Below, piece by piece: positions 22,882 to 55,808 of a stretch of 64,000 nucleotides of DNA. How positions within the stretch are numbered: the stretch's first letter is position 1; each line of letters begins with the position of its first letter. The translations under genes were made by a program, and so were the position numbers. Source of the DNA: Massilia sp. UMI-21 (GTDB lineage: Bacteria; Pseudomonadota; Gammaproteobacteria; Burkholderiales; Burkholderiaceae_D). The DNA is taken from the NCBI GenBank assembly GCA_015277795.1, contig CP063848.1, positions 1,612,001-1,676,000 on the forward strand, written 5' to 3'. A model generated the notes under the pieces. The model was not told where the DNA came from, searched no databases, and saw only the letters and a program-made list of their open reading frames with translations.

Positions 22882-22908
22882 AAAAAAAAGCCCGCTCGAG
22901 GCGGGCTT
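22882..22908 (-). terminator. Rho-independent terminator, minus strand
   Basis: The hairpin AAGCCCGC/GCGGGCTT with loop CTCGA is followed on the minus strand by eight T residues. It lies 173 bases beyond the SDR stop codon and could end that mRNA or a separate short transcript. Confidence 0.8.
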
Positions 22909-22974
22909 AAAACTATTTTCTTGGAGGAGAATAGTGGAGACAGCTGCAGTATGTTGCAGCGCGAAATATATGTC
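22882..22974 (-). ncRNA. Candidate small RNA A or 3' UTR of the SDR gene
   Basis: The stretch between a -10-like TATACT (22981-22986, minus strand) and the terminator at 22882-22908 is AT-rich, non-coding and about 90 bases long. No good -35 is seen, so this may simply be the 3' UTR of the SDR transcript or an RNA processed from it. Confidence 0.25.
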
Positions 22975-52129: not shown

Positions 52130-54448
52130 TCAGCAATTGCCCGCCTGCACCGCCTCGGGCGGCGTTTCTTCCTGCTGGCGGTGCCCGCTGGCCACCGGCT
52201 GGCGGCTTTCGGCGGTGTGCTGGAGTTCCTCGATCTCCGGGTCGTGCACGTTGCGCAGTTCGAGGTAGCGGTCCAGGGCCTGGTCGAGGCGCGGCAGCAG
52301 GATGCCGCGCTCGCTCGTCAAGGCGCAGTAGGCGGGGCGCGCCGCCGGGTAGGCGATCGAACGCGCTTCCAGCCGGCTGGCGTCGATGCCGGCCCGCTCG
52401 GCCGCCTTCAGCGCCAGCTCGGCCCAGGTGAGCTCCCCGCCGTTGGCCAGGTGCCAGATGCCGGCCTCGCGGTCGATCGCCAGGTCCAGGCAGGCATGCA
52501 CCAGGTCGGGCACGTAGGTCGGCGTAATGGTCAGGTCGTTCGAGGCGGTGAACGACTCGCCGCGGGCCAAGGCGTTCAACGCCAGGGTGACGAAGTTGTG
52601 CTGGTCCCAGGGGCCGAAGAAGGCGCTGGTGCGCACCACCAGCGCGTCCGGGTGCTCGTCCAGCACCGCCACCTCGGCGTCGGCCTTGCTGCGGCCGTAG
52701 ACACCCAGGGGCGCCACCGGGTCCGATTCCACATAGGGACGCTCGCTGCGGCCGTCGAACACCAGGTCGCTCGAGAAGCTGGTCAGGTGGATGCCGTGGC
52801 GGGCGCAGGCGGCGGCCAGGATGGCGGCGCCGGCGGTGTTCTCGCGGAAGCAGCGTTCGGCATCGTTCTCGGCGTCGTCCACGCGCACGTAGCCGCAGGT
52901 GTTGATCACGGCCCAGGGCTGGTAGGCGGCCAGGGCGCGTTCGACCGAGGCGCTGTCGGCGATGTCCATTTCCTTGCGCGAGAGCAGGCGGTAGGACAGG
53001 TTGCGCTTGCGGCAGACGCGCGCAAAGGCGCGGCCCAGGGTGCCGGTGGCGCCCAGGATCAGGATCGGCGCGGCACTCGTGCCGACCAGGCGATGGCCGT
53101 CGGCCGAGATCGAGGTGAGGGCCTTCGGCGTGGCCACCGGCGGGTGGCACAGGAAGCGGCCCTGGCGGCGCCACCAGCCCTGCCCGCGCAGCACCGGGTG
53201 CGACAGCGGGCTACCCGACGACAGTTCCTTCATCATGCGGGCCAGCGCGGTCGGGCGCGGCATCGGCGAGCGCACGTCGAAGGGGCCGGGCTCGTAGTAG
53301 CCCCTGTTCTGGGTGACCAGGCTGTTCCAGTCGAAAGAGCCGAGCAGCGACCAGACGGTGACGGCGCGCACGTCGACGCCGTTCTGCTGCGACTGCTGGG
53401 CCGCTTCCCAGATCTCGAGCAGCCAGCGCAGCTGGTCTTCGCGGTTGGCGTCGATGTGGGCTTCGGTGATGGCCAGCGGGATGCCGTAGCGATCCCAGAT
53501 CTCGGACAGCAGCGGGGCGATGCCCGGCGTCGGCGTGGCCAGCACGCGCGAGGCTTCGATGTCGGCGCAGGGGATGCCGTCGGCCATGCCGCGGTGGTGT
53601 TCCGGGAAGCGCTCGGGACGGTGGTCGAGCCAGCGCTCGGAGGTGACGTAATAATTGACGCCGATGATGTCGGGCGGGCAGGGGTTCTCGCGGAACCACA
53701 GGAATTCTTCCGGCGCGATGCCGGTCTTGAGCAGGTAATTCCACAGCGTGTGCCCTTGGTCGACCATGCCGCACAGCAGGTCCCAGGCCAGCCAGCGCCG
53801 CTCGTTGTAGAACGCGGCCACGTGGGCCAGCTCCGGGGTGGCGTAGGTCTTGCCGAGGTCGTCGGTCTGGACCAGCTTGGCGTCCGGGTTGACCGCGCGG
53901 ATCGCGCGCATCGACAGCACCACGGCGCGGCACTGCACCAGCAGGGCTTGAATGAAGGTACGGTCGTCGCGGCCGTGCGGGTACCAGACCCCGTACAGGC
54001 CGGCGAAGCGGGCGGTGGTGCAGGGCTCGTTGACCGGGGTGTAGTGGTTGATCCAGGGATAGCGCGCGGCCACCGCGCCGGCATACTCGGCCAGGCGTTC
54101 GGCGAAGGCCGGGTCGACCAGGCTGGTGTCGCGCGGGCCGCTGCCGTGGTGCACCAGGCCGGCGATCGGCGTCACGCCGGCCGCGCGCAGCGCGTTCAGG
54201 CGCTCGTCGGGCCAGCGCCAGTCGGCGCTGTCCACGCCATCAGGGGCGGTACGTTCCCATAGCACGGGGTAGCGGATTGCGCGGATGCCGGTGGACGCGA
54301 AACGCCCGATGTCGCAGGCGCGGCCGTGGTGGCCGTTGCGGTCGAGCTGGCTGAAGTAGTCGTCGCGGACACGGTTGACCGTGCATTCGAGGCCGCCCCA
54401 GAGTTCCAGCGGGGGGATTTGGCTGTTCGTGCTCTTTTGAGGATTCAT
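52130..54448 (-). CDS. Fusion of GH1-like glycosidase and RmlD-like sugar-nucleotide reductase
   Basis: The product has 772 residues. Residues about 15-415 are a GH1-type (beta/alpha)8 domain with the acid/base Glu141 in TPVNEPCTTARF and nucleophile Glu329 in AITEAHIDAN. Residues about 460-740 are a dTDP-4-dehydrorhamnose-reductase-like SDR with GATGTLG (466-472) and catalytic Y584-G-R-S-K588. A sugar-nucleotide reductase fused to a glycosidase would let one chain act on a deoxy-sugar at two steps, but neither substrate is known. The start is ATG 54448 (GTG 54457 possible). Confidence 0.85.
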   Translation of the reverse strand: MNPQKSTNSQIPPLELWGGLECTVNRVRDDYFSQLDRNGHHGRACDIGRFASTGIRAIRYPVLWERTAPDGVDSADWRWPDERLNALRAAGVTPIAGLVHHGSGPRDTSLVDPAFAERLAEYAGAVAARYPWINHYTPVNEPCTTARFAGLYGVWYPHGRDDRTFIQALLVQCRAVVLSMRAIRAVNPDAKLVQTDDLGKTYATPELAHVAAFYNERRWLAWDLLCGMVDQGHTLWNYLLKTGIAPEEFLWFRENPCPPDIIGVNYYVTSERWLDHRPERFPEHHRGMADGIPCADIEASRVLATPTPGIAPLLSEIWDRYGIPLAITEAHIDANREDQLRWLLEIWEAAQQSQQNGVDVRAVTVWSLLGSFDWNSLVTQNRGYYEPGPFDVRSPMPRPTALARMMKELSSGSPLSHPVLRGQGWWRRQGRFLCHPPVATPKALTSISADGHRLVGTSAAPILILGATGTLGRAFARVCRKRNLSYRLLSRKEMDIADSASVERALAAYQPWAVINTCGYVRVDDAENDAERCFRENTAGAAILAAACARHGIHLTSFSSDLVFDGRSERPYVESDPVAPLGVYGRSKADAEVAVLDEHPDALVVRTSAFFGPWDQHNFVTLALNALARGESFTASNDLTITPTYVPDLVHACLDLAIDREAGIWHLANGGELTWAELALKAAERAGIDASRLEARSIAYPAARPAYCALTSERGILLPRLDQALDRYLELRNVHDPEIEELQHTAESRQPVASGHRQQEETPPEAVQAGNC

Positions 54449-54558
54449 CTGATTCACCGGTTATTAATCTTATTGCAACAAAAATACGGCAGCTTGGCGT
54501 CCCGGTAAAAAAATTGCTGAGTGGGGAGCCGTGGCTGCGGTCACGGTACGGGTAGCGG

Positions 54559-54585
54559 TTGACAGCGAGGCGCCAACCTGCAACC
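54559..54585 (+). promoter_or_regulatory. Possible promoter of the trpS leader transcript
   Basis: A consensus -35 TTGACA occurs at 54559-54564. A -10 with normal spacing is poor (AACCAT-like), so the promoter assignment is weak. Transcription would start at or just before the leader peptide. Confidence 0.25.
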
Positions 54586-54594
54586 ATGCAGGCC

Positions 54595-54645
54595 ATGAAT
54601 TTTCTGAAAGCACATCGTCTTCTTCTTACCTGGTGGCGCCGCTGA
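54595..54645 (+). CDS. Tryptophan leader peptide (MNFLKAHRLLLTWWRR)
   Basis: This 16-residue open frame has two adjacent Trp codons (54631-54636) followed by two Arg and the stop, the hallmark of a trp attenuator leader. An in-frame ATG at 54586 would add MQA. It is too short for ordinary gene finding. It precedes the attenuator and trpS. Confidence 0.8.
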   Translation: MNFLKAHRLLLTWWRR

Positions 54646-54682
54646 TCACGCGCGGCCGCAGGAAATGATGTGCATTCCAAAT

Positions 54683-54715
54683 AACGCCGCCTCGATCCAG
54701 GTGGCGTTTTCTTTC
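54683..54715 (+). terminator. Intrinsic terminator of the trpS attenuator (3:4 hairpin)
   Basis: The 10-bp stem with one G-U pair and a 6-base loop CGATCC is followed by TTTTCTTTC. It lies 52 bases before the trpS start, so it would cut leader transcripts short when Trp is plentiful. Confidence 0.8.
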
Positions 54716-54767
54716 TGAGCGCAGGAGGGTCGGGGCCCAGGTCAGTGACTAGAACCAAGGAAACTCG

Positions 54768-55808
54768 ATGAGCTCGCAAAACCCCTCCGCAGTCCCATCC
54801 AACACCGCGCCAATCATCCTTACCGGTGACCGGCCTACCGGTCCGCTGCACCTCGGCCACTTCGTGGGCAGCCTGCGCAACCGTGTTGCCTACCAGGACA
54901 GCTACCGCCAGTTCGTCATGCTCGCAGACGCCCAGGCGCTGACCGACAACATGGATGACATCGGTAAGGTACACCGGAACGTGGTGGAAGTGGCGCTCGA
55001 TTACCTCGCCGTGGGCATCGATCCGGCCCGCACGACCATCCTGATCCAGTCGCAGATTCCGGAACTGACCGAGCTGACCTTCTATTACCTGAACCTGGTG
55101 ACCGTGGCGCGCCTGGAGCGCAACCCGACCGTCAAGCAGGAAATCGTCCAGCGCGGTTTCGAGCGCGACATCCCGGCCGGCTTCCTGACCTACCCGGCCA
55201 GCCAGACCGCCGACATCACCGCCTTCAAGGCCAGCGTGGTGCCGGTCGGCGAGGACCAGATCCCGATGATCGAGCAGTGCAACGAGATCGTGCGCAGGTT
55301 CAACCGCACCTACGGCCAGGGCAAGGAGATCCTGGTCGAGTGCAAGGCGATCGTGCCGGAAGTGGGCCGCCTGCCGGGCATCGACGGCCGCGCCAAGATG
55401 AGCAAGTCGCTCGGCAACACGATCAACCTGGGCGCCAGCGCCGACGAGATCCGCGCCGCGGTCAAGCAGGTGTATACCGATCCGCTGCACCTGAAAGTGT
55501 CCGACCCGGGCCACCTGGAAGGCAACGTGGCCTTCATCTACCTCGATGCCTTTGACACCGACAAGGAAGGCCTGGCCGAGATGAAGGCCCACTACACCCG
55601 CGGCGGACTGGGCGACAGCGTGGTCAAGAAACGCCTGGAAGGCATCCTGCAGGAGATGCTGGCGCCGATCCGCGCGCGACGCGAAGAGTTCGCCAAGGAC
55701 CGCGGTCATGTGATGCAGATCCTCAAGGAAGGCACCATGAAGGCGCGTGAAGTGGCGGCGCAGACCACCGATGAGGTGAAGAAGGCGCTGGGACTGTCGT
55801 ACTTCTGA
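54768..55808 (+). CDS. trpS: Tryptophanyl-tRNA synthetase
   Basis: This class I synthetase, 346 residues, charges tRNA(Trp). The HIGH-equivalent is [11 protein letters not shown] (H28-H31 region), the KMSKS loop is KMSKS (210-214) in [13 protein letters not shown], and [17 protein letters not shown] and [19 protein letters not shown] are typical. It is a single gene whose expression is probably set by the attenuator just upstream, linking Trp-tRNA shortage to more TrpS. No separate terminator is seen; a dispersed repeat follows. Confidence 0.97.

Follow-up and report, generated by a model that had tools for sequence, protein, structure and literature searches.

A conserved, predicted tryptophan attenuator, probably leaderless, accompanies TrpRS-II type trpS genes

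Organization of the trpS leader

The window analysed here is a stretch of 64,000 nucleotides from the 5.3-Mb single-contig genome of Massilia sp. UMI-21, which its nearest relatives place among the Massilia/Telluria-type Oxalobacteraceae. The leader described in this work sits between the trpS gene and a divergent minus-strand gene (52130-54457), whose product was observed to consist of a glycosyl hydrolase family 1 (GH1)-like part fused to an RmlD-like part. The elements of the region are listed below in window coordinates.

54559-54564, + strand: -35 element (TTGACA) of the predicted trpL-trpS promoter
54582-54587, + strand: -10 element (AACCAT) of the same promoter, with a TG extension at 54579-54580 and 7 nt to the ATG at 54595
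54595-54645, + strand: trpL leader ORF, MNFLKAHRLLLTWWRR followed by a stop, 16 codons, probably translated from a leaderless mRNA
54610-54616, + strand: segment A (GCACATC), paired with 54667-54673 in the minimum free energy fold; possible pause or superattenuation hairpin
54631-54636, + strand: tandem Trp regulatory codons TGG TGG (both kept by most leaders of the family, one W in some clades)
54638-54642, + strand: segment 1 (GCCGC)
54643-54645, + strand: stop codon of trpL
54652-54656, + strand: segment 2 (GCGGC), partner of segment 1 or 3
54667-54673, + strand: segment A' (GATGTGC), partner of segment A in the minimum free energy fold
54683-54692, + strand: segment 3 (AACGCCGCCT), 5' arm of the terminator and antiterminator partner of segment 2
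54686-54690, + strand: GCCGC copy within segment 3
54699-54708, + strand: segment 4 (AGGTGGCGTT), 3' arm of the terminator, with stem covariation
54709-54716, + strand: T-rich tail TTCTTTCT, directly after the 10-bp terminator stem
54757-54762, + strand: Shine-Dalgarno-like AAGGAA of trpS
54768-55808, + strand: trpS, 346 aa, TrpRS-II type, the sole TrpS found in the genome

The first-pass annotation of this DNA had described a 16-residue leader peptide with tandem Trp codons, alternative pairings sharing GCCGC/GCGGC/GCCGC and a T-tailed terminator just before trpS. The pairings and the terminator are indeed present at the coordinates given above, the T-tailed 10-bp terminator lying 51 nt from trpS. 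The 16-residue WW peptide (54595-54645) was retained as well, but the start at 54586, an in-frame ATG that would encode 19 residues, was discarded because it overlaps the -10 element. A WW leader ORF, an intrinsic terminator, a predicted antiterminator exclusive of it and a stop codon from which a ribosome would cover segment 2, by which trp-type attenuators are recognized, were all found in this leader.

Conservation in the Oxalobacteraceae

When the upstream regions of relatives are compared, the Trp codons and the terminator and antiterminator segments are seen to be kept, as the first-pass proposal demanded. The 111 loci of the family gave 79 distinct leaders combining promoter, ATG and Trp codon, 17 repeats, and 15 loci in which none was found by the search rule. 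The last are seven loci named Collimonas, six of genus g28, and the loci L051, where a WW leader is present further upstream, and L052, where a terminator-like hairpin is kept and the leader is absent.

The reading frame was scored with a test that does not presuppose it. Among 92 distinct regions, 78 were scorable (13 had no promoter pattern in the stretch used and one had no core), and in 78/78 the core TGG and the promoter-linked ATG share frame 0, the spacing being 33, 36, 39 or 48 nt. These comparative data decide the matter, and the Trp attenuator layout in front of trpS is confirmed as a genuine feature.

The number of Trp codons varies between clades. Duganella and Rugamonas leaders contain a single one (terminal residues YWRRS or NWRRS). 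Many of 60 further genes of the family (TrpS 61-82% identical) have leaders ending in HWWRA or YWWRA, often with TATACT 6-7 nt ahead of the ATG and with a terminator of ATGCCGCC/GGCGGCAT replacing ACGCCGCC/GGTGGCGT; others have one Trp codon or no leader at all. Leader L010, whose terminator was off pattern, was left out of the first leader alignment. A near-clade covariance model of 12 pairs matched 86/245 genomes of the family at an E-value of at most 0.1, but some of these matches were weak and lay away from trpS and many diverged leaders were missed, so that no counts were taken from it. The exact core motif was likewise dropped as a genome-wide marker, its 15-mer having three exact copies in the genome.

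A separate observation concerns four loci of genus g32 (L162, L166, L169 and L177), in which trpS is preceded by a TTGACA resembling a promoter element and by a T-tailed hairpin rich in GC, but no Trp leader ORF was found by the search rule. These loci give the impression that the terminator has outlived a lost sensor.

The TrpRS-II type of the enzyme

Judged by its sequence, the window TrpS falls outside the canonical betaproteobacterial type, with scores of 249.7 and 194.7 bits for models whose cut-offs are 572 and 597. The closest PDB structures are 1yi8 and 2a4m, which we take to be Deinococcus proteins, the latter being named tryptophanyl-tRNA synthetase II. No other TrpS was found in the genome, either by protein search or with TIGR00233, and this sole TrpRS is presumably essential. 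The same situation recurs in the family sample, where 58/245 genomes have one strong TrpRS-II-type match and no second TrpS (counted by hand from the match listing, three genomes, G000, G018 and G032, being checked with a second query). Other family genomes combine the TrpRS-II type with weaker, canonical-kind matches or have canonical-kind matches only. In the genome G237, a TrpRS-II gene was seen in two pieces lying in different frames (C1:4665440-4666437), other TrpS matches being absent; this may perhaps be a sequencing error.

In a tree of 99 TrpS proteins, from which L293 is absent as no protein was obtained, the 88 TrpRS-II rows, a Deinococcus plasmid row included, form one clade (100/100) apart from the 11 canonical rows. 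WW leaders precede 62/88 of the former and 0/11 of the latter. In a second tree, actinomycete rows adjoin the TrpRS-II clade, with a long branch at the join and a program warning.

Spread of WW leaders with TrpRS-II genes

A WW leader was defined by an ATG start, a length of 8-30 codons and an in-frame TGGTGG, within 380 nt. On this rule, 141 of 204 distinct regions upstream of TrpRS-II genes carry a WW leader vs 0/35 for canonical trpS genes, the rate in dinucleotide-shuffled upstream regions being 0.8% and 1.7%. Canonical trpS genes are thereby ruled out as carriers. The leaders occur in Oxalobacteraceae (102/151), other Burkholderiales (11/19), Gammaproteobacteria (16/18), the alpha group and other phylum members (4/5) and named replicon records (8/11), which rules out a distribution confined to Oxalobacteraceae. 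As single-W leaders of the Duganella/Rugamonas type were scored as having no WW, 141/204 is a minimum figure for Trp leaders in general. The 63 regions of the 204 that lack a WW leader include the seven named Collimonas loci.

Identical 150-nt upstream ends were counted once in these figures, and two near-copy pairs (L064/L070 and L103/L111) are still among the 204. The duplicate L002 (of L001) and L313, a 20-base placeholder region, were left out; the untyped loci L128, L187, L217 and L218 were uncounted, and L278, which is canonical, stands outside the 204.

The named records with a WW leader are an E. coli plasmid, Rhizobium, Variovorax, Burkholderia, Vibrio, Roseibium, Methylocystis and a Deinococcus plasmid; those of Acinetobacter, Proteus and Enterococcus have none. 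The Deinococcus plasmid leader, MKGKHAPCQAWWPGS, has TATCTT six nt before its ATG and a GC-rich hairpin with TTTTT. In 11 more named records, the ATG rule found WW leaders in nine; Rhodococcus L321 has one with a GTG start, and the Staphylococcus epidermidis record lacks one. The actinomycete trpS genes of three records are all of the LTG[DE]RPTG type like that of the window, and the WW leaders of Nonomuraea L319 and Embleya L320 start with ATG. A fresh even sample of 397 Pseudomonadota genomes contained TrpRS-II in 31 (E up to 1e-80), of which 12 had been examined earlier, two were partial matches left out (G823, G878) and 17 were new. A WW leader precedes 14/17 of the new loci, two of which, L337 and L338, share an identical leader; another of the 17, L331, has a single-W leader.

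WW leaders thus accompany TrpRS-II in Pseudomonadota, in Deinococcota and in three actinomycete records. The betaproteobacterial scope suggested at first has to be abandoned: according to the trees and the leader counts, the feature tracks the TrpRS-II gene type across phyla. The trees force at least 12 leader changes (99-protein tree) and 5 (actinomycete tree), and we interpret the distribution as a single ancient origin followed by many losses, although these trees do not prove that the origin was single.

The neighbourhoods of some of these genes deserve mention in their own right. On a Klebsiella plasmid typed as conjugative (L323, 56-2526), the tryptophan permease gene mtr lies just upstream of the WW-led TrpRS-II gene. 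On a small Staphylococcus epidermidis plasmid (L325, 1486-3990), TrpRS-II is found beside an MFS efflux gene, and that stretch has neither a WW leader nor an Rfam T-box above threshold. Upstream of the Proteus TrpRS-II gene (L273, 566-1154), a tRNA-Ser/tRNA-Thr pair is present twice in tandem.

Promoter geometry and the predicted leaderless start

The exact hexamer TTGACA and a 17-nt spacer occur in all 79 of the distinct Oxalobacteraceae leaders found; as the search itself required TTG[AC]C[AG] with spacers of 16-18, it is the exactness of the hexamer and the uniformity of the spacer that are informative. The -10 element is AACCAT or a near variant, 5-7 nt before the ATG (79/79), and distant relatives have TATACT or similar, 6-8 nt from the leader ATG. 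The window AACCAT matches TATAAT at only 3/6 positions, and a generic scanner called no sigma-70 promoter, and one terminator vs 0.5 expected. Over the whole set of WW leaders, taking the start with the best promoter score where several were possible, the end of the best -10 lies 6-8 nt ahead of the ATG in 141/141 (4-9 allowed). Promoter scores of at least 8.5 were reached by 77% of WW-leader ATGs vs 3.5% of 1238 other ATGs. Only 103/141 leaders have a -35 that matches at 4/6 positions or more, and 3/141 have an SD-like sequence ahead of the leader ATG.

Transcription generally starts about 7 nt past the -10 element. The promoter geometry accordingly places the predicted start site on the A of the leader AUG, and trpL is therefore probably translated from a leaderless mRNA.

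Folding of the leader RNA

Relative to dinucleotide shuffles, folding is more stable by 4.0 sd for the leader RNA (1/200 as good) and by 4.1 sd for the terminator hairpin (0/200 as good); the stretch that forms the 2:3 pairing, taken alone, is no more stable than its shuffles (z +0.45). Covariation was studied in 50 diverse leaders, which remained of 112 terminator-bearing ones after near-copies and the alpha group had been dropped. The terminator stem consists of 93.0% standard pairs, with two-sided changes at 6/10 pairs, one pair being C-G in 25 and U-A in 20 of the 50 leaders. Its covariation score is 0.319 vs 0.165 in shuffles (0/500 as high), and slid versions of the stem reach 0.096 at most. 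The 2:3 pairs are formed in 95.2% of cells (shuffles 94.5%) and are nearly invariant, with one two-sided cell in 250, so that covariation barely supports this stem; such invariance is as expected for one sequence obliged to pair with two partners. The A:A' pairing (CACATC/GATGTG) is formed in 90.9% of cells among 76 distinct near-clade sequences, where shuffles give 89.5% and slid controls at most 49%.

The effect of a ribosome was examined by masked folding of the 112 leaders, each cut off after segment 3, the ribosome being placed at a Trp codon, at the stop or nowhere. Moving the ribosome from the stop back to the second Trp codon raised the upstream pairing of segment 3 in 110/112 leaders when all upstream RNA was masked, in 107/112 with a footprint of -18 to +12 and in 106/112 with a footprint of -15 to +12. 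For the window leader, the wider footprint gives a pairing of 0.55 at either Trp codon and 0.018 at the stop, the value without a ribosome being 0.018 as well. The narrower one still gives 0.55 for the first Trp codon, but for the second it gives 0.20, which is under the shuffled mean of 0.38 because A:A' competes; with this footprint, pairing in the stalled state exceeds the shuffled-spacer mean in 99/111 leaders. The leader had been likened at first sight to the classic trp-operon attenuator, and its folding with a masked ribosome follows the pattern expected under the classic model.

A simple terminator was found by rule in all but 29 of the 141 WW leaders; in the gamma group, 12/16 are without one. 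In many of these gamma leaders (L246-L257), inspection by eye showed an interrupted stem of greater length and, close to the ribosome site of trpS, a TATCTCC...GGAGATA pairing. Because of this pairing at the ribosome site, translational attenuation is possible, and the gamma leaders without a simple terminator may be controlled at translation also.

Proposed mechanism and alternative explanations

We estimate at about 0.9 the probability that a ribosome-mediated transcription attenuator controls trpS, a gene of TrpRS-II type and the only tryptophanyl-tRNA synthetase gene of this genome. In such a mechanism, RNA polymerase would start at or beside the leader AUG and the first ribosome would load on a leaderless mRNA. 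With ample charged tRNA-Trp, this ribosome would reach the stop codon and cover segment 2, leaving segments 3 and 4 to form the terminator, and transcription would end before trpS. When charged tRNA-Trp is short, the ribosome would stall at the Trp codons and segment 2 would pair with segment 3, a pairing that would block the terminator and let trpS be transcribed. If no ribosome is present, A:A' and 1:2 would hold segment 2 and the terminator would form. TrpS would consequently be raised when charged tRNA-Trp is low, as the first-pass annotation had supposed.

A trans-acting role could also be imagined for the leader RNA, the 16-aa peptide or both, cis control of trpS being then secondary. 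There is a precedent in Sinorhizobium, where rnTrpL begins with the trpL ATG and both the terminated sRNA and the peptide peTrpL are active in trans, according to the available portion of PMC7298713, and the window leader would also give a terminated RNA of about 120 nt. The start, the WW(R) end, the stop and the RNA segments are however conserved, while the remaining peptide is variable in length and sequence; a cis sensor is therefore favoured. Together with the strong linkage of the leader to TrpRS-II genes, this makes a mainly trans-acting leader unlikely. It is a good deal less probable still that the hairpin is only a terminator against readthrough or promoter noise, with an incidental WW ORF and trpS transcribed from another promoter. 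Hairpins without a leader do exist in some lineages (L162, L166, L169), and Collimonas has a hairpin without a WW leader, with promoter-like sequence seemingly after it when inspected by eye; but an incidental ORF fits poorly with a frame conserved in 78/78 scorable regions, with WW leaders at 0/35 canonical trpS genes and with the conserved promoter geometry ahead of the leader.

Finally, a sensor that binds tRNA or protein in a T-box- or TRAP-like manner, in place of a translating ribosome, has a parallel in the T-boxes of aminoacyl-tRNA synthetase genes in Firmicutes (PMC1262725, in the portion consulted), but is extremely improbable in view of zero Rfam matches in 54400-54900 at E up to 1. 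Neither the T-box model nor the Rfam Trp leader was matched in that interval at this threshold, and the T-box and the known leader families were ruled out on this basis. Over the whole window, one Rfam family scored above threshold and is unrelated to the leader: RF02278 (Betaproteobacteria toxic small RNA), at 22882-22942 on the minus strand, with 50.4 against a gathering score of 50.

Beyond the ribosome-mediated attenuator itself, TrpRS-II and its leaderless Trp attenuator may form an old, self-regulating cassette that moves horizontally, on chromosomes and plasmids of at least three phyla, a reading to which we would give slightly less than even odds. Such a cassette would sense uncharged tRNA-Trp and would therefore answer TrpRS inhibitors too; in Massilia and its relatives, the housekeeping TrpRS would have given way to it, and an essential synthetase would thereby have come under ribosome-mediated attenuation.

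The results suggest a translational Trp-codon feedback tied to one TrpRS lineage across very large evolutionary distances, including genomes where TrpRS-II is the only TrpRS found. They provide a candidate case of leaderless-mRNA translation inside a regulatory device of many proteobacteria, as well as an RNA element for which no match to an Rfam model was obtained here. They also offer a candidate account of TrpRS-II gene induction: the accessible text of a review (PMC9437257) describes the interaction of TrpRS II with nitric oxide synthase and Trp nitration and, citing Deinococcus work, its induction upon radiation damage.

Comparison with known systems

In the trpL leader of E. coli, tandem Trp codons are followed by a stop just before segment 2, and 1:2, 2:3 and 3:4 are alternative pairings. 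The window leader has the same tandem Trp codons, stop placement and alternative pairings; it differs in controlling a synthetase gene and not biosynthesis, in lacking a Shine-Dalgarno sequence ahead of the leader ORF and in having no Rfam match. Attenuation of an auxiliary, antibiotic-resistant TrpRS gene has reportedly been described in Streptomyces, to judge from the title of a 2010 article by Vecchione and Sello.

Classical attenuators before trpS have been predicted in Streptomyces, among them one before trpS2 of S. avermitilis, as stated in the portion of PMC1262725 consulted. They resemble the window leader in combining a Trp-codon leader with an attenuator before trpS, and trpL2 of S. 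lividans, also located before trpS, is likewise leaderless; it contains a single Trp codon and lacks a recognized U-rich run downstream, according to the part of PMC8079986 that was available, whereas the window leader, from another phylum, has two Trp codons and a T-tail. The Sinorhizobium meliloti trpL (rnTrpL) is again a leaderless Trp leader ORF of a proteobacterium, but it precedes trpE(G) and its activity in trans is established there (PMC7298713, as far as available), while the window leader precedes trpS. In Caulobacter, ribosome profiling gave a putative small leader CDS in the trpS mRNA (PMC4117421, available part). The gammaproteobacterial pheST operon exemplifies classical attenuation of a synthetase operon, for Phe and not Trp (PMC1262725, same portion).

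The word trpS is absent from the main text of PMC2965389, PMC4833913 and PMC2659441. In the literature searched, mostly outside subscription journals and in part as partial text, no description was found of an attenuator linked to TrpRS-II in proteobacteria or Deinococcus, of its spread with TrpRS-II or of its control of a sole TrpRS. The novelty of the first-pass proposal has therefore to be divided: an attenuator before trpS is already known from Streptomyces, and the one linked to TrpRS-II in proteobacteria is what these sources, as far as available, leave undescribed. The mechanism belongs to a known and ordinary class, its distribution is wider than was thought at first, and the comparison of sequences soundly supports a conserved, probably leaderless Trp attenuator that accompanies TrpRS-II.
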